Positions 993 through 36,277 of a stretch of 36,277 bases of DNA are shown one piece after another (position 1 is the stretch's first letter; the number at the start of each line of letters is the position of its first letter). The notes beneath the pieces are model-generated. The model was given only the letters and a program-made list of their open reading frames with translations, was not told where the DNA came from and did not search any database. The stretch spans positions 1 to 36,277 of the IMG/VR virus record IMGVR_UViG_3300021407_000029, one strand, 5' to 3'. The translations under genes were made by a program, and so were the position numbers. This DNA is from a virus.

Positions 993-1660
993 TTAAGCTA
1001 ATGTTGCGCGAAGATTTAAGACCCACAGATCATTAGTGATACGTGGAACTTCAGCGAATTTGTAACCTACAGACGCATTAAGAGCTAATGGGCCGTCATA
1101 GATCGGTGGACGATAAATAAAGCTGGCTGAATAACCATCTTGCTCAATACAAGCATAAGCTTCCATACCAACACAGAAGATGTTATACACATCTGCGCCT
1201 AATGAAGAAGCATTAGCTGAAACAGAACCGATAGAGCTCACCAAGAAACGTAAGTTTCCGATTGAACCCCATTCTGATCGAAGAGCATTCATAGGAGCTG
1301 GGTAGTTATTTTTATGAATAAAACCAGCAACGTTATCTAAGTTACCTGTAAGCTGTGTTGAACATAATGCAAAGTATGCATCACGAACTGGAGCTGTACC
1401 GAATTTATCTTCACCTTCGATGTTATCCATAATTGTGTATGCGTTGTTATTTAACAATGCACGAACAATAGTATCAACATCAGAACGTGTGATTTCTGTA
1501 GGAACATCACCATTAACACCACCTGTACAGTTGATGAATGAAGCTGTTGAAGCCAACATATCACGAGTTAATTGATCTTCTGTTTGACGAAGAGAAACTC
1601 CAAGACGTGCAGCACATTCATTAAGTACTGGATCTTGGTTTTGTAAGGTACAATCTGTTA
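993..1660 (-). CDS. Major capsid protein (N4-gp56 family), exon 2
   Basis: This is the C-terminal part (about 221 residues) of the main shell protein. It opens with TDCTLQNQDPVLNE and continues with LRQTEDQLTRDMLA, RDAYFALC and a GSIGNLRFLVSS-like segment, the usual block order of N4-gp56 capsid proteins. It ends LRATLA with TAA at 993. It lacks the N-terminal third, which lies at 2443-2722 in another exon. An ATG at 1712 keeps the frame open upstream, but the codons between it and about 1660 belong to intron structure (P9 hairpins) and do not match the family. Joining exon 1 (ending in AVTV) to TDCTLQ gives a continuous capsid sequence of about 315 residues. The exact junction is uncertain by a few bases because GTAACAG occurs on both sides. 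Confidence 0.85.
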
Positions 1661-2442
1661 CTTTTGTGACCACTTTCGTGGCGGGAAAACCTCTTCGGAT
1701 TCTCCTCTCCATGTCTCCATGGAGGTCAGACTTTCGCTTTACGATTTCTCGTATCTACCCGCTTAAGTCGTTTACGCCGGCTTTAATTTACGATAAACTA
1801 ATAAATGGCTATTAATCGTAAAGGATATTAAATGATTAGCACATATATTAAAAAAGACTATACAGTTGCCCAGTTGGCTTATTTGGCTGGAACCATCGAT
1901 GGAGAGGGTTGCTTTCTTATTGGCTGTTATTCCTTCAGCAAGAAGACTGGCGTACCCCATTTTCATACCATGATTCAAGTTACAAGCACCGATAGAATAC
2001 TCATTGAATGGCTTGTAGAAAACTTTGGAGGAAAGGTTTCCGAATATACGAAAAAACAAATTCCCGAAAATTCTCGAAGGACTCCATATCGATGGGTTAT
2101 TCATGCTGATCGTCTTAAACATCTTTGTGAACTCATGATGCCCTATCTTGTCATTAAAAAAGAACAAGCAGAGATAATGATCGAAATGCGAGCTACATTT
2201 GAAAAAACAAGAATGCGCAAAGGACAACAAGGAACTCAACCTATTGAAAAGGAAGTCCTTGATACTCGTTACGCGTTGTTTCATAAACTTAAAGCTTTGC
2301 ATATTCGCTAATCCTATAATTCAATTGTCTTGCGCAGTGTCACGCTCGCCTTTACGTTAGCGCTTCCACCTCTATTAGGGCTGATTTAAAGCAGGCTACT
2401 CTTAACCTGCTCGTTTATTGTAACGTAGGTCTCAACAATAAA
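1661..2442 (-). mobile_element. Group I intron interrupting the major capsid gene
   Basis: This ~780-bp insert separates two halves of the capsid gene. Read on the minus strand, its 3' part has a group I catalytic core layout: an R-like ACGACTT whose GACTT (1769-1765) pairs with AAGTC (1733-1729) as P7. A P8-like hairpin TACGA-GAAA-TCGTA lies between them (1753-1740). It is followed by P9 CTCCATG-GAGA-CATGGAG (1724-1707) and CCAC-GAAA-GTGG (1681-1670). Three GNRA tetraloops in about 85 bases is strong evidence. At the 5' end GTTTATTG (2443-2436) pairs with CAATAAAC (2420-2413) as P1, and GCAGG/CCTGC (2391-2410) forms P2. GTTAC (2424-2420) can pair with the 3' exon as P10. A G at 1661 could be the terminal omega-G. 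The expected U-G wobble at the 5' splice site is not evident, so the boundaries are approximate. Confidence 0.82.
1832..2311 (+). CDS. LAGLIDADG homing endonuclease, encoded antisense inside the capsid intron
   Basis: This 159-residue protein carries one LAGLIDADG motif, LAYLAGTIDGEGCF (residues 15-28). The acidic residue E25 sits where the metal-binding catalytic residue lies. A single motif and this length fit the homodimeric class. AAAGGATATTAA before the ATG gives a Shine-Dalgarno at good spacing. Such enzymes cut intronless alleles so that the intron is copied in by repair. The gene runs opposite to the capsid gene and to the intron's functional strand, so it cannot be translated from the capsid pre-mRNA and needs its own plus-strand promoter. 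A weak candidate is TTTACG-N17-TATTAA just upstream. The frame looks intact. LAGLIDADG enzymes are less common in phage introns than HNH or GIY-YIG types. Confidence 0.88.
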   Translation: MISTYIKKDYTVAQLAYLAGTIDGEGCFLIGCYSFSKKTGVPHFHTMIQVTSTDRILIEWLVENFGGKVSEYTKKQIPENSRRTPYRWVIHADRLKHLCELMMPYLVIKKEQAEIMIEMRATFEKTRMRKGQQGTQPIEKEVLDTRYALFHKLKALHIR

Positions 2443-2722
2443 CTGTTACGGCACCTTTACCGTAAAAACTAATCTTCGCATCAATGTCTACCGCAGTTAA
2501 GTTCTGTGGTGGGGGAGTGACGCCGCTATTACCAAGTGGAACCATAGCAGTATTGAGAGGATTATAACGTCTCATTCTCAATGTTGTACCGCCATTTCTA
2601 GGCATCTGCTTTTTCATGGCCGGTATTTTGTGAATCATATTTGGGACTGGAACGGACAAAAGCTTGTAACTAAAGCTTTGTTGAACCGGCGCCGGTAGGG
2701 ATGATGTCGTTGTGATTGACAT
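2443..2722 (-). CDS. Major capsid protein (N4-gp56 family), exon 1
   Basis: The first ~94 residues of the capsid protein start at ATG 2722, with AAGGAG eight bases upstream. The segment includes GGTTLRMRRYNPL (residues 44-56) and KISFYGKGAVTV (83-94), the beta-strand region that in N4-gp56 proteins precedes the NQDPVLNE block found in exon 2. Unspliced translation would add only two residues (Y, C) and stop at a UGA inside the intron. The unspliced message would therefore give a ~96-residue dead-end peptide, and splicing is essential for capsid production. The spliced protein of ~315 residues is short for the family. Confidence 0.85.
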
Positions 2723-5470: not shown

Positions 5471-7096
5471 TTAATACATGCCAGGCATTTGTGGCGAACC
5501 ATGAGCTGAAACTTCTTTCTTATCTTCTGGTATTTCCACAATAACCGATTCAGTCGTTAATAATAATCCCGAAATAGATGCTGCATTCTGTAAAGCTGTT
5601 CGTACGACTTTAGCCGGATCAATAATACCAGCTTTAATCATATCAACATATTCTCCGCTGCGAGCATTAAATCCATTATTACCTGATTCTTCACGAACTT
5701 GATTAACAATAACTGAAGATTCAAATCCTGCATTTGAACTTATAATGCGAATCGGTTCTTCAAGAGCACGCATTATAATTTGAGCTCCAAGAAGTTCATC
5801 GCCTTCTAAATTTAGATCTTTAACGCATGATTGTGATCTGAGAAGTGTAACTCCACCACCAGCTACAATTCCTTCTTCTATTGCCGCTCTTGTTGCATGC
5901 AGTGCGTCATCAATTCGGTCTTTCTTCTCTTTCATTTCAACTTCTGTAGACGCTCCCACTTTAATGATGGCAACACCACCAGAAAGTTTAGCTAAACGTT
6001 CCTGTAATTTATCTTTATCATATTCTGAACTGATATTTTCCATTTGAGCTTTGATATTAATTACTCTGGCATGAATATCTGCGATCAACCCAGCACCTTC
6101 AACGATAGTAATATTGTCTTTTGTGACGATTACTTTCTTAGCGCGGCCCAGATCAACTATAGTAGTTGTCTCGAGTTTTAGTCCTAGATCTTCAGTAATA
6201 AGTTTACCTCCAGTTAAAATGGCAATATCTTCGAGCATAGATTTGCGACGGTCGCCAAAACCTGGGGATTTAACTGCGACTACTGAAAGAATCCCACGCA
6301 TTTTATTAACAACAAGAGTAGCAAGAGCTTCGCCCTCTACATCTTCTGCAATAATAAGTAATGGTCTGCTATTCTTTGCAGCTACTTCTAAAGTAGGAAG
6401 AAGCGCTTTCATACTTGAAACTTTGCTATCTACAATGAGAATGAGAACATCGTTAAGTATTGTCTGCATCTTTTCAGAATCAGTTACAAAATAAGGAGAT
6501 AAATATCCACGATCAAATTGCATACCCTCAACAACCGTAAGTTCGCTTTCAATTCCCTTAGCCTCTTCAACAGTTATCACACCATCCCGACCTACTTTAT
6601 CCATTGCATGTGCGATTTGTTCGCCAATAAAAGTATCAGAGTTCGCCGAAATAGAAGCTATCTGCTCTATCTCTTTTTTGGAAATTACTTTTGTTGCTTG
6701 TGATTTTATATAATCAACGACAGCTGTCACTGCTTTATCTATACCACGCTTTAGTTCCATAGGATTAGCACCAGCAGTAACATACTTATTACCTTCGCGG
6801 AATATAGCTTGAGCCAGAACTGTAGCAGTCGTAGTACCATCACCGGCAATATCAGCAGTTTTACTTGCAACTTCACGCACCATTTGAGCGCCCATATTTT
6901 CAATAGGGTCAGCTAGTTCAACTTCTTTGGCTACGCTTACTCCGTCTTTAGTAACAATAGGCGAACCATAAGCACGCTGAAAAGCAACGTTACGACCTTT
7001 GGGTCCTAATGTAACCTTAACTACATTTGCCAACGTATCTACGCCTACGCCTAGTTTTGAGCGCGCTTCAATGCTAAATAATATTTTCTTAGCCAT
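5471..7096 (-). CDS. groL: Chaperonin GroEL (Hsp60), full length
   Basis: This 541-residue protein covers the whole GroEL fold. It has the ATP site GDGTTT (85-90), the KDGVSVAKE loop with D51 (E. coli D52) and catalytic D397 in [14 protein letters not shown] (E. coli D398). The apical substrate/GroES-binding region ([26 protein letters not shown]) is also conserved. The C-terminal Gly-Met tail is reduced to a single MPGMY. No key residue is missing, so it should be an active ATP-driven folding ring. It follows groES by one base and lies within the head-assembly genes, which suggests it folds the capsid or another virion protein. Phage GroELs are known but uncommon, and having GroES alongside is rarer. 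Capture from a bacterial host is likely. Confidence 0.97.
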
Positions 7097-7097
7097 A

Positions 7098-7373
7098 TTA
7101 TAAAACCCCTATAATTTCTGGTTCATGCACAACAACTATGTCTTTTTCTATTTCAAGACCAGTATATTTACCAATGAGAACTTTATCCCCTAAAATAACA
7201 GTTAGTGGTTTTTCTTTACCTGGACCAACTGCTATAACTTCAGCCATTTGAATTTTTTCATCAATAGCACTATCCGGGATTATAATAACCACATTTCCTA
7301 GTGGCTTTTCTGTTTGTGTTTTTAGTTTACGGAGAATTACCCTATCTGAAAGAGGGCGAAGTGATTCATACAT
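7098..7373 (-). CDS. groS: Co-chaperonin GroES (Hsp10)
   Basis: This 91-residue lid subunit is the partner of the adjacent GroEL. I place the start at the ATG at 7373 ([17 protein letters not shown]) because AAGGA lies six bases upstream and the protein then aligns with standard GroES. The in-frame ATG at 7406 would add 11 unrelated residues. The mobile loop that inserts into GroEL is present in variant form ([11 protein letters not shown] instead of a GGIVL core), and the core [14 protein letters not shown] is well conserved. The one-base gap to groEL indicates a bicistronic message. A terminator immediately upstream isolates the pair, so a promoter must lie in the AT-rich 7375-7430 stretch. 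No CIRCE operator is visible. Confidence 0.95.
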
Positions 7374-7430
7374 ACATGTTCCTTGTTTGAATTTCGGATT
7401 CACCATTAAAATAGCATAAATATGTATAAC

Positions 7431-9171: not shown

Positions 9172-11283
9172 TTATCCTAGGGTTTGAGGTTGTTTAGACA
9201 CTTGTATTGGAGCGCCAGCAGCACTACTTTGCACGGAAGAAGCTGCTGGCTGAGTAGAGTTCTGTAATGGTTCAGGTGATTGAATGCTCGATTGTTCTGC
9301 AATCTTGAGTGCGTTGGCCATAGCAATAAGTTTCTCGATATGGCTCAGATCCATCATTTCTAATTCTTTTAAGATCTTAACTTTTTCAAGTAATGCTTGT
9401 TCATCGTTCTTATTAGCTTCAGATAGTTTCTGAATAGCAAGAGCACGGTCTGAAACTGAACGCGCATCACGTTCACCACCAAGACTTATATCAGCAACTG
9501 AACGCGCGTGAGCCAGTTCTGCTTGAGCTTGTTGTAATTGCATTTGAGATTGCATTTGTTGTTGCTGCACTTGAGCCTCAGCCTGCTCTGCTTTCTGAAT
9601 AGATTCGATAAGTTGTTTCTTGTTCTGTAAAGTACACGCTTCAAGCAATTGGTCATTAGGTACAGGAACACCAACTTCTTTAAGTTGTAGAAGCTGAGCA
9701 AATTGCATCTGTTTCTGTGTAGTAGTATTGAATCCTTCTTCAACAGCAGCGCCATATTTACCGAAAGCTTTATTATAAAACTGCGCAGTTGGTTCAGCAC
9801 CCTCGAGAATCTTCTTAATCTTACCAGGCATATAGTTTGCTTGGATAATATCGATCATAATTCCACCTAATAGCTTCTGCGCATAGTCTAGGTTGTCGAA
9901 TAATATCTGCAGAGTGGTAAGACCAGCACCTTGACGTAACATGCTGAGTATGCCAGCCTTATCATCCACAGCAGCACCCAGAAGTTCTTCATTAACGCCA
10001 CTAATTTTTTGAATTTCATCAGCTAAGATTTTTGAAAGTTCAATCATCGATGGTGGAATTTGCGGAGCGATGATCTGCTCAACATCAGTCATGAGCGCTT
10101 CTTCTTTAAGTGCTAAACCGCGCCCTTGCCCTGTTAAGAAAATATCTTTCGGGTTAACGAGGGCGTTTTCCTTGTACTTAAATCCTGAGTTTATTTGAGA
10201 CTCGAGGATATCGAGCTCGATAGCTTTTCTTCTATTATATAAATATTGTGCATCTCTCAATCCACGAACAACACCTGCTACTCTGTAAGGCATATAAGGC
10301 ATTTGTGGATTATAGTAACTGAAAACTGGTACGAATGGATATTTATCTATACCGAGCGGATTTGGTCCATGGTAGAATACTCTATTCTCAACTACAATAG
10401 CGAGTCTTACAGTAGGTATTTCTTGTTTAACTACAGTTACACTTGGGTATGTTTGTAAGTAAAGTTTAAGAGCATCCTCGTCTTTTCCTGTCCACTCCAT
10501 AGACTCGCCAGTTTCAGAATCAACGAGCATCCGCTGCTCTCTGAAGTCTTGGTACCAGAATTCGTCATAAGTAAGTAAGTTATTTACAGACCAAGAATAT
10601 GACTCGGGCATGAATTGGAATTTACCATCACGCCCAGAACCAGAGTCATGTGTCATAAGGCCAAGGATCTCGTCAGCATATTGTGGCAGGATAGAGATGA
10701 TTTGTCGTTTGTTCATGAACTGGCGACGCAAGATCCCACGGCAATCTGATAGATCCGTTTTGCGGAAGTACGGATCAATAAGAAAACTGTTATAAGAACA
10801 GTTATCAACTTTTATATTACCTGAAACAGGATCGGACCGAAGATCATTCCATACGTAGAGCAAGTTCATCCCAGTAACTAACGACCCATGAAATGAATCA
10901 GATATAGTTTCTAGTACGCCTTGCGTTCTGTCGATATGCATGATGACCTTGGTAAATTGATCCGCGGTCTCTGCATCGCCATTTTCTATCGGGGTGACAA
11001 TGGTCGACTTACGGTTACGTCTTTGGTAACCAGAAATCATGTTAATAACAGGCTTTATTCTATTGAAGTTAAATTGGCGTCTTCTGTTAGCGGGTAGGTT
11101 CCCATAAAGATCATTAAAGAAGCTCTGATCGCCTGCCTCATAACGAGTATCAGTGTCAGCTTCCTGCCAAAAGGCTTGGTTAATTGTTACAGATTCAGCA
11201 TAAAAGGTTTGTATACGGGCAAGAATACCGCGATCATCGGGAGATGAGCCTAAATATTCAGGTCCAAGCTGTGGGAAAATAAT
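9172..11283 (-). CDS. Portal protein (P22-type), probable AUU start
   Basis: The dodecameric portal forms the DNA entry vertex. An ATG at 11040 opens a 622-residue frame, but the same frame runs back to a TAG at 11296-11298. The upstream part is clearly portal-like: EYLGSSPDDRGILARIQ, FWQEADTDTRYEAGDQ, NLPANRRRQFNFNRI, leading into MISGYQRRNRKSTIVTP. That region has no ATG, GTG or TTG. AAAGG lies seven bases before an ATT at 11283, which I take as the likely start, giving ~703 residues, close to P22 portal size. The core includes SFLIDPYFRKTDLSDCRG, NPLGIDKYPFVPVF and KAGILSMLRQGAGLTTLQ. The C-terminal ~150 residues are a Gln-rich coiled coil. An unmarked splice or sequence error is the alternative. 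Confidence 0.88.
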   Translation of the reverse strand: MIFPQLGPEYLGSSPDDRGILARIQTFYAESVTINQAFWQEADTDTRYEAGDQSFFNDLYGNLPANRRRQFNFNRIKPVINMISGYQRRNRKSTIVTPIENGDAETADQFTKVIMHIDRTQGVLETISDSFHGSLVTGMNLLYVWNDLRSDPVSGNIKVDNCSYNSFLIDPYFRKTDLSDCRGILRRQFMNKRQIISILPQYADEILGLMTHDSGSGRDGKFQFMPESYSWSVNNLLTYDEFWYQDFREQRMLVDSETGESMEWTGKDEDALKLYLQTYPSVTVVKQEIPTVRLAIVVENRVFYHGPNPLGIDKYPFVPVFSYYNPQMPYMPYRVAGVVRGLRDAQYLYNRRKAIELDILESQINSGFKYKENALVNPKDIFLTGQGRGLALKEEALMTDVEQIIAPQIPPSMIELSKILADEIQKISGVNEELLGAAVDDKAGILSMLRQGAGLTTLQILFDNLDYAQKLLGGIMIDIIQANYMPGKIKKILEGAEPTAQFYNKAFGKYGAAVEEGFNTTTQKQMQFAQLLQLKEVGVPVPNDQLLEACTLQNKKQLIESIQKAEQAEAQVQQQQMQSQMQLQQAQAELAHARSVADISLGGERDARSVSDRALAIQKLSEANKNDEQALLEKVKILKELEMMDLSHIEKLIAMANALKIAEQSSIQSPEPLQNSTQPAASSVQSSAAGAPIQVSKQPQTLG

Positions 11284-13197: not shown

Positions 13198-14559
13198 TTA
13201 ATACTCCGGTAAATCGGTCCTAAAAAACGGCGCCTGACTTGTTTGGTCGCCATATACAGCTTCTCTATAATTTCTTTCTAATCTCTCTTTAGATAACCCA
13301 TCTTTTGTTTTTGGCAAACTAGCACATAAGTACCTAAAAGCGTCTGCTCCGTGGCTTGTATGATCATGGAGCGGGCGCCCCTTATATACTTTGCGCTTGT
13401 CGTCATACTCTTCGCGATAGTTTTCTAAAGATTTAATAAGTTTCTTACAATTTTGTTCATCTATCCAGACTTTGTTGAAGGTTCTACGGCATAGTTCTAT
13501 ACCATCTTCAATGCCAATCATAACTGGCTCAGTAAATTTAATACCAAGCTCGCGGTACATTTCTCTACGCGATAATCCGCGCGACAATTCACGCACCATA
13601 ATGTCATGTGGGGGAAAATGAGAGCCGTAAACATATTGTTTATTCAAAACTATATTCGCGAAATGATCCATACCCTTGTCACTTTGTTCATGATAATCGA
13701 TAATACGAACAGTCTCTCCAATAACCTGAAAGAAAATAATAACTGTGGCATCTTTAATCCCAAGATCCCAAGCAGTATGCACTTTATGATACGGTTCCCA
13801 AGGTACATGCCCAATCCTCGATTGTAGACGCATCTTGTCTATATATTTGGCGTAATAAGAACCCTCTTGGCCGCGTTCCCATGAGCAATAATATTCTTGC
13901 ATCGCTAAGTCTTCAGATATCTCGCCCGATTCTATCTCTTTGCGCACTTCATGAGCTGATATATGCCCAGTATCTTCAATAGTTAGAAACTGAGTAAACC
14001 AATCTTCTGAGTTCCTTGCTATCTGATAGAGCTCGTACATATGATTTTTTCCCCGAGGGGTTGAAATTAAGGCAACGATGCCGTCATTAGCACGAAGAAT
14101 CGGCATAGCAGCAAGTTTATAAGCATTCTCATCGCATAAGGCATACTCTGAAAAAACTATCATTCTGGGGTTACTACCGATTATAGACGTGTTATAACTA
14201 TCGCTACCCACAAGCCTAATGAGAGAGCCATTAGCAAGATTAATAGACATAGTATCATTACGGATTTTAGTAATAAGTGCTTTAGGTATTTCATCGATGA
14301 AATTTTCTCCTTTGTTGGTTTTACCTTCCCAGATAACTGAACGAGCTTGAGAAAAAGTGGGCAAACAATAAAGATATAATCCAGGTATTCGAATAGCCTC
14401 TCTAATCATTAACGCCCACCATTCATAATCTTTACCTGACCTTCTGGGATTGACTATGAGAAACTTTTTGTACTTTTTATTTTCAAATGCCTGACAAACC
14501 GGTAATTGATATTGGCGAGGCGAAAATTTATTAAGATGTATTACTGATTCAATGTTCAC
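13198..14559 (-). CDS. terL: Terminase large subunit
   Basis: This 453-residue packaging motor and nuclease pumps DNA into the prohead through the portal. The ATPase domain shows a Walker A-like NPRRSGKD (37-44), Walker B RMIVFSEYA with E138, and the LISTPRG coupling motif (164-170). The RNase H-like nuclease domain has AWDLGIKDAT (D265) and HTSHGADAFRY (D406). It is near the usual length. Seven small genes separate it from the TerS candidate upstream, an unusual gap for a terminase pair. Its first 11 bases overlap the end of a homing-endonuclease-like gene, which may be a parasite of the packaging locus. Confidence 0.95.
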   Translation of the reverse strand: MNIESVIHLNKFSPRQYQLPVCQAFENKKYKKFLIVNPRRSGKDYEWWALMIREAIRIPGLYLYCLPTFSQARSVIWEGKTNKGENFIDEIPKALITKIRNDTMSINLANGSLIRLVGSDSYNTSIIGSNPRMIVFSEYALCDENAYKLAAMPILRANDGIVALISTPRGKNHMYELYQIARNSEDWFTQFLTIEDTGHISAHEVRKEIESGEISEDLAMQEYYCSWERGQEGSYYAKYIDKMRLQSRIGHVPWEPYHKVHTAWDLGIKDATVIIFFQVIGETVRIIDYHEQSDKGMDHFANIVLNKQYVYGSHFPPHDIMVRELSRGLSRREMYRELGIKFTEPVMIGIEDGIELCRRTFNKVWIDEQNCKKLIKSLENYREEYDDKRKVYKGRPLHDHTSHGADAFRYLCASLPKTKDGLSKERLERNYREAVYGDQTSQAPFFRTDLPEY

Positions 14560-15205
14560 GCGGCCTCTTATTGTTATTATTTTCTTTAGAGGTTATCCAT
14601 CTACAATTTTCTTTAAAATATCCCTTATCATTATCTATGCGATCTAATTGAAGATTTGCTGGACGATCCCCCATATCAGCATAAAAACTAACAAAAGTAT
14701 GCCATTCTTTACATACTTTAATACCACGTCCGCCATAATTTTTATAAGCTTTATTCTTTGGATTATTGCATCGAGCCAACATGCCCATCCAGATTATCCA
14801 TATAGAAGTATTTTTCATTCCATGGGTTTTACATGAATTATTTTTACATTCATGACACTGCTTTACTTGCCCACGCCTTAAAGCGCTTCCGTTACAAATG
14901 CGCTCATTCCCGCAATCACAGATGCATTTATAATATTTATTATTACCATCAGAGTGTGTTAATTCTTTAATGGTAAGTCGATTGAACTTTCTACTAATCA
15001 TATCACCCGACATTTCATCTAGATAACATTTTTGGCACTGATTTGATCTCTTAATATTTCCTTGATAAAGCAATTGTATTAAACCACATTTACATTGAGC
15101 TTTATAGAATATTAATTTTTTTCCGAGTCTTTCGTCCACTACTGTTTCAAGCACAGTCCATTGACCAAAAACTTCTCCAGTTCTATCTGTTATTTCTTTT
15201 GTCAT
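14549..15205 (-). CDS. HNH-type homing-endonuclease-like protein with two zinc ribbons
   Basis: This 218-residue protein has two N-terminal Cys clusters (C38/C40...C57/C60 and C94/C96/C98...C117/C120), each like a small zinc ribbon. A C-terminal phage domain follows with NYGGRGIKVCKEW (156-168), LDRIDN (187-192) and NCRW (200-203). That domain is common in free-standing phage proteins usually annotated as HNH or homing-type endonucleases. No strict HNH motif is visible, so the nuclease assignment follows from family resemblance. It sits directly against terL, overlapping its start by 11 bases. The first ribbon is related to the 87-residue protein at 15928-16191. Confidence 0.75.
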   Translation of the reverse strand: MTKEITDRTGEVFGQWTVLETVVDERLGKKLIFYKAQCKCGLIQLLYQGNIKRSNQCQKCYLDEMSGDMISRKFNRLTIKELTHSDGNNKYYKCICDCGNERICNGSALRRGQVKQCHECKNNSCKTHGMKNTSIWIIWMGMLARCNNPKNKAYKNYGGRGIKVCKEWHTFVSFYADMGDRPANLQLDRIDNDKGYFKENCRWITSKENNNNKRPREH

Positions 15206-35882: not shown

Positions 35883-36277
35883 TTATAACCCACCGTAGGT
35901 AGATTTACCAGCTAACCAATACATGGTATCGCCAGTTGCAACGTTACCTGAAGACCAAGCTACAGAACCAGAAGGTCCTAAGATTGGTGTGGTTAACTCA
36001 AGGCCATTACCACCTGTTCCTAGAATCATTCCGAGGAATCCTGTGTTAACAGTAGAGTCAGCGAGAATACCTGTATTTGTATTGAAGATCTGTTGACCAG
36101 CAATTTCAGGTACCACTAATCCAAGTGTTACTAAAGCAGTTGCAGTATCTTCGCCAAAAGGAGTAACTTCTGGGAAAGAACTTGGCTGCTGAGCAATTGT
36201 TGGATAAGTAAACGCGGTGTAAGCGCTAGTATCTATATTGATAGTGAAGTTGTAATCATCAACAATACTATCTACGA
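35883..36277 (-). CDS. Virion-associated protein with FCCH-like domain, C-terminal part (same gene as 1-982)
   Basis: This is the right-hand part of the 408-residue gene, read through the terminal overlap. The segment unique to this end encodes the last 81 residues, ending GDTMYWLAGKSTYGGL with TAA at 35883. It includes a Gly/Thr-rich beta segment (GFLGMILGTGGNGLELTTPI). An ATG at 36116 opens a shorter frame but is not the true start. See the entry at 1-982 for the domain description. Confidence 0.8.
   Translation of the reverse strand, partial: VDSIVDDYNFTINIDTSAYTAFTYPTIAQQPSSFPEVTPFGEDTATALVTLGLVVPEIAGQQIFNTNTGILADSTVNTGFLGMILGTGGNGLELTTPILGPSGSVAWSSGNVATGDTMYWLAGKSTYGGL
36128..36277. repeat. 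Terminal overlap, right copy
   Basis: This copy is identical to bases 1-150 except at 36145 and 36271. It joins the contig ends in frame within the 408-residue virion gene. Confidence 0.9.

Follow-up and report, generated by a model that had tools for sequence, protein, structure and literature searches.

Group I introns have been described in the capsid genes of mycobacteriophage LittleE, where an HNH gene lies inside the intron, and of the lactococcal phage Tuc2009, which is cited in the LittleE paper (PMC3706429). Between introns 2 and 3 of Twort orf142 and between two Coxiella 23S introns, an exon of 23 or 34 nt separates full ribozymes; the splice sites of one intron are usable with the core of the other, and exon skipping occurs (PMC10136302). 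Engineered tandem Tetrahymena introns show that, when a transcript contains two introns, a group I core is able to use distal splice sites (PMC10136302). Group I introns in capsid genes have precedents, as do endonuclease genes in antisense orientation and short exons flanked by two full group I introns.

Euglenid group III introns are abbreviated group II introns; they are short, have kept their splice signals, have lost the core and depend on outside help. The gene 60 bypass of phage T4 involves a short gap that breaks the frame and is accompanied by a stop and hairpins. No description of core-less or mini group I introns served by a neighbour was found in the open-licence literature.

The locus described here lies in viral DNA of 36,277 nucleotides (IMG/VR record IMGVR_UViG_3300021407_000029, positions 1 to 36,277), which was analysed as a whole and is called the window below. 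A preliminary description made from the sequence had placed one group I intron in its major capsid gene, at 1661–2442. A group I intron is supported there, but two inserts are present, A and B, and one of them (A) lacks a catalytic core. As in LittleE, the interrupted gene is the major capsid gene, the exon ends in U, the intron ends in G and the endonuclease gene is oriented opposite to the capsid gene (PMC3706429); unlike LittleE, with its one intron and HNH gene, this locus has a LAGLIDADG gene, an intron family that occupies about 25 positions across the capsid genes of relatives, and a core-less mini-intron upstream. The very short exon between two introns resembles those of Twort orf142 and Coxiella 23S, whereas here the first intron is without a core and skipping of the micro-exon would shift the frame. 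The Tetrahymena tandem differs from A and B in being artificial and in consisting of two complete or two complementary half ribozymes, with no dependent mini-intron. Euglenid group III introns use group II chemistry, are organellar and are helped in trans, whereas A carries group I signals and has a core next door. The features of the locus, in the direction of the capsid message, are as follows.

2459–2722, minus strand: capsid exon 1, codons 1–88, ending ...FYG (TTTTACGGT), placed by alignment to intronless relatives.
2431–2458, minus strand: mini-intron A, 28 nt, with no catalytic core and an in-frame stop; its flanks are continuous in intronless relatives, the exon ends in U and the insert in G.
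2446–2465, minus strand: predicted P1 of A, exon UUACGGU (2465–2459) with guide GCCGUAA (2452–2446), U·G at the splice site; invariant in relatives, and the RNA folds so.
2427–2456, minus strand: predicted P10 of A, AGGU (2456–2453) with the first micro-exon bases ACCU (2430–2427), from covariation.
2413–2443, minus strand: predicted tail hairpin, GUUUAUUGU (2443–2435) in A with ACAAUAAAC (2421–2413) in the micro-exon, directly adjoining the exon strand of P1 of B; from covariation and folding.
2405–2430, minus strand: micro-exon, 26 nt, TYVTINEQ plus the first two bases of V, the equivalent of TYVQLNEQV in intronless relatives.
2390–2411, minus strand: predicted P1 of B, exon AGCAGGU (2411–2405) with guide GCCUGCU (2396–2390), U·G at the splice site; from sequence and folding.
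1651–2404, minus strand: predicted group I intron B, 754 nt, from the match to covariance model R1 and the family alignment.
1832–2311, plus strand: predicted LAGLIDADG homing endonuclease ORF, 159 aa, antisense to the intron, in the P6 loop between the P6 strands.
1729–1769, minus strand: predicted P7 (GACUU 1769–1765 with AAGUC 1733–1729) with P8 (1753–1740) inside it, from the family-model alignment.
1670–1724, minus strand: predicted P9 (1724–1707), P9.1 (about 1705–1684) and P9.2 (1681–1670), from the family-model alignment and covariation.
993–1650, minus strand: capsid exon 3, TLQNQDPVL... to the stop, placed by alignment to intronless relatives.

In the ORF reading of the window, the minus-strand frame opening at 2722 encodes 96 residues and stops at 2432, and the remaining capsid frame continues to 993. 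That the capsid frame is split, as had been proposed, was borne out by the alignment to intronless relatives, a check suggested at the same time, which fixed the junctions of both A and B. In these relatives FYG, TYVQLNEQV and TLQNQDPVL are unbroken; in the window the order is FYG, A (28 nt), TYVTINEQ(V) (26 nt), B (754 nt) and TLQNQDPVL. The group I intron is therefore bounded by 2404 and 1651 and not, as described before, by 2442 and 1661, a version that would lose nine conserved residues: what had been taken for the 5′ part of the intron is a separate 28 nt insert (2458–2431) followed by the 26 nt micro-exon (2430–2405) with its conserved capsid residues. The dead end of about 96 residues expected of the unspliced message is real as far as the stop is concerned, but the stop lies inside A (2431–2458), not in the group I intron.

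Once both A and B are taken out, the encoded protein has 315 residues and is 91–94% identical, without gaps, to seven intronless relatives. Early stops result when only A is removed (102 residues), when only B is removed (96) or when the micro-exon is skipped (97). Differences in the micro-exon among relatives average 1.4, 0.4 and 3.2 per pair at codon positions 1, 2 and 3, respectively; this mostly third-position variation is as expected of translated sequence. The protein of an intronless relative was identified as an N4-gp56 family major capsid protein (TIGR04387, E = 9.5e-42, 143 bits, cut-off 60) and also matches PHROG 1357, major head protein, with E = 1.1e-31; the joined exons of the window are 94% identical to this relative, and the N4-gp56 assignment of the preliminary description holds by this route. 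Taken singly, the capsid exons of the window gave no Pfam match. Spliced cDNA was sought among contigs without A; their exons reach at most 92% identity to those of a gene with A, and none of them is a credible spliced copy. From the anatomy and reading frames, the capsid pre-mRNA is predicted to contain two introns flanking a 26 nt micro-exon.

Intron B was analysed with covariance model R1, which covers P7 to the 3′ end and was built from 29 family members with the window left out. R1 gave a single match in the window (1773–1651, minus strand, 102.4 bits, E = 7e-23), the end of which coincides with the predicted 3′ splice site, and the scan of the whole record found only this one family core. 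The splice signals of B are AGCAGGU^ facing GCCUGCU, with U·G in P1, and an intron end ...GAUUG^. An alignment of 18 compact introns of about 195–250 nt from the capsid genes of relatives yielded P1, P3, P4, P5, P6, P8, P9, P9.1 and P9.2; with P7 included, changes on both sides were found in 41 of 52 pairs, compared with 27.8 in shuffles, over these 18 compact homologues. P7 is paired in all 18 with compensatory changes, and P1 covaries across family introns located at different sites. Of the structural elements named earlier, the P7 pairing was recovered at 1769–1765 with 1733–1729, and the hairpins at 1753–1740, 1724–1707 and 1681–1670 correspond to P8, P9 and P9.2 of the group I core; the P1-like stem had been assigned wrongly.

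The Rfam group I search that had been recommended as a check was negative: RF00028 did not match the window at the gathering score, nor at E ≤ 10. Two family members are matched by RF00028 (27.6 bits, E = 0.0043; 26.3 bits, E = 0.0005), both below the gathering score of 50, which is a detection threshold and not a structural requirement. Since the window has no Rfam match, a decision by Rfam alone would have wrongly discarded the intron. The covarying compact family, the strong R1 match and the gap-free joined exons support the view that B is a group I intron interrupting the major capsid gene.

The ORF at 1832–2311 (plus strand), which the preliminary description had missed, matches PF00961 (LAGLIDADG_1) with E = 2.7e-5, above the cut-off, and contains the motif LAGTIDGEG. 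It also matches LAGLIDADG endonuclease chains in the PDB by sequence, and in viral contigs its nearest relatives occupy the same intron at the identical site, likewise in antisense orientation; it is a predicted LAGLIDADG homing endonuclease. Elsewhere in the window, an HNH-like ORF (14549–15205, minus strand) directly upstream of the large terminase gene is probably a free-standing homing endonuclease. A complete GroEL (5471–7096, minus strand; TIGR02348, 796 bits) adjoins a GroES-like ORF (7098–7406, minus strand). Positions 1–160 and about 36120–36277 encode a nearly identical peptide (SIVDDYNF...FGED), an indication that the genome is circular or terminally redundant; comparison of the record ends gave no exact end repeat.

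The capsid gene had been presented as an unusual place for a phage intron; group I precedents exist (PMC3706429), and the location is less surprising than claimed. The capsid gene family is unusually intron-rich for phage. Four or five introns of one group I family plus the mini-intron occur in one capsid gene in L117, L085, L095, L064 and L102, the L117 gene having five family introns plus the mini-intron. In L198 the family model matches at 10441–10576 (minus strand), on the contig of the capsid gene but about 9 kb from it; this distance places the intron family in another gene as well. The contigs of capsid relatives L239 and L240 were binned with MAGs of Simkaniaceae and Parachlamydiaceae; the binning, taken by itself, is a weak hint that phages with these capsids infect environmental chlamydiae.

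Mini-intron A carries group I splice signals, namely a P1 with U·G, a P10 and a terminal G. It is 28 nt long in the window and at most 55 nt in relatives, which in no case leaves room for a core; without a P3–P8 core of its own, A does not qualify as an autonomous group I intron and has only the splice signals of one. When folded, the RNA of the window forms P1 of A, the tail hairpin and P1 of B (z = −5.3). Nothing above chance came out of a search for promoters across the insert. Scanning viral contigs and capsid relatives for the pattern of A yielded 41 distinct versions of A, including that of the window, with lengths of 28–55 nt (36 nt in L026). In the first 30 versions, position 3 of P10 is a Watson–Crick pair in every case, with four pair types, and none of 100,000 shuffles equalled this; in a separate covariation analysis the types numbered 13 GC, 6 AU, 5 CG and 4 UA. 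On the best capsid-exon tree, a quick one with many weak forks, at least 18 changes of the pair label are counted, and P10 has one mismatch among the 41 versions (L260). An independent-pairs test on the capsid tree gave five supported pairs, all in agreement and too few for significance. Taken together, P1, P10 and the tail hairpin have 97.5% of cells paired; sliding lowers this to 43% or less. Their covariation score is 0.278, compared with 0.096 for shuffles. P1 of A never varies and thus gives no covariation; the exon 1 end TACGGT is present in 42 of 42 genes with A and in 9 of 97 without.

The presence of A goes together with that of a group I intron downstream. Where enough sequence was available, distinct loci with A have such an intron at codons 89–117 in 37 of 37 cases, versus 13 of 100 for those without A, in a sample partly fetched by the sequence of A itself; among 80 capsid loci fetched regardless of A, it is present in all 18 loci with A, 16 of them distinct. 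Over the 41 distinct sequences A is always 15–90 nt upstream of a group I intron and was never seen alone, and B occurs at the same site without A in L081–L088 and L265. The catalytic 3′ module is present in those partner introns that were scanned; the partner in L185 is truncated by the end of its contig. In many partner introns at codon 97 (L007, L018, L044, L102 and others) the P1 loop is enlarged and includes, within the first 50 nt of the intron, a conserved stretch similar to TTCTTTGAAATTTCTTGGTTTTG.

In most relatives the tail of A pairs with the exon just before P1 of the partner intron, and the target of the tail hairpin shifts with the partner site (codons 97, 104, 105 and 117). The pairing is GUUUAUUGU/ACAAUAAAC at codon 97 in the window and CUGAUUCUGUAA/UUACAGAAUCAG at codon 105 in L036; those at codon 104 (GUUUUGGAG/CUCCAAAAC in L202) and codon 117 (L153 and L185) were read by eye. 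An exception is L270, with its partner at codon 93, in which the micro-exon is too short and there is no exon hairpin.

From the observed anatomy, covariation, co-occurrence and reading frames of A and B, we consider it likely that A represents an intron of the group I type stripped down to splice signals and that the ribozyme of B would remove both introns in cis, A first, with B locked in as a consequence. The only family core in the record is that of B and the tail of A is tied to the exon beside B, so that splicing of A by B, followed by splicing of B itself, is the simplest reading. P1 of A would dock first in the B ribozyme, guanosine would cut after GGU at codon 88 and P10 of A would align ligation to the micro-exon, while the tail of A, paired to the exon directly upstream of P1 of B, would hold the splice sites of A against the B ribozyme. 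P1 of B would dock next and B would remove itself. This order is proposed because B, if it left first, would take the linked core away from A. Precise loss of B would leave an unspliceable A in the capsid gene, and A would in this way lock B in.

Alternatively, A might be the group I substrate of a core acting in trans, supplied by excised B, by another intron of the gene or by a ribozyme elsewhere in the phage or host. The splice signals of A would suit any family core, many relatives have several family introns in one gene, and the action of the B core on A is deduced from position and pairing. A core acting in trans would, however, need neither the position of A 15–90 nt upstream of a family intron nor the pairing of its tail beside that intron, and the window has only one family core; we regard this explanation as unlikely.

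Two further explanations dispense with splicing of A, and we give very little credence to either. In one, ribosomes would skip A as in T4 gene 60; the gap is short (28–55 nt), has an in-frame stop and has hairpins near it. Bypassing was rejected because take-off and landing codons are unmatched, with GGU before the gap and GAG (window) or AAG, ATG, CTG or CCG (relatives) at its end. In place of matched codons, A has a group I P1, a P10 that covaries and a terminal G, and bypassing would leave the strict coupling to a downstream group I intron unexplained. In the other, only B would be real and capsid genes with A would be dead copies or assembly artefacts. A is known from metagenomic contigs and from no isolate, yet its 41 distinct sequences come from contigs of many samples, the exons are intact and highly conserved, the micro-exon varies mainly at third codon positions and both introns show compensatory changes. 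Least credible is a single larger intron spanning codon 88 to 1651, with boundaries near those of the preliminary description, with an intronic micro-exon and a mature capsid short of nine residues: P1 at the codon 88 splice site is good and the 3′ site is shared, but this candidate was rejected since its product shifts frame and stops after 97 residues, the micro-exon stretch encodes exactly the missing conserved residues and P10 of A pairs at the start of the micro-exon.

The preferred reading, removal of A by the ribozyme of B, is accompanied by a candidate origin for A. Full-length family introns of 706–749 nt are found exactly at the site of A in three lineages (L261/L366, L349/L378 and L351), where they have the same P1 as A and where there is no intron at codons 89–117. 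In L351 the 5′ part of the intron is GCCGUA-GUAAAACC and the 3′ end is AAAGUAACAGAUUAUUG; when the two are fused at GUA, the product is nearly the A of the window (GCCGUAACAGUUUAUUGUUGAG). On this resemblance, A probably arose by deletion of the core from a full-length intron at the same site, and the core would have been lost while a downstream intron could serve.

With slightly less assurance, we think it probable that elements such as A form a non-autonomous class of group I introns: 28–55 nt long, consisting only of splice signals, removed in cis and in sequence by the ribozyme belonging to the intron that follows, and equipped with a re-targetable docking hairpin, so that loss of that following intron would be lethal to the capsid gene and a mobile element would be fixed in position. 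If the mechanism holds, A is new as a dependent group I variant without a core. One natural group I ribozyme would then serve two introns, one of them bare splice signals, and A-type elements would be the smallest group I-type introns known to us. The pair would be a group I example of self-splicing introns coming to depend on a shared catalytic machine, and it would offer a simple route by which a selfish intron may become indispensable.
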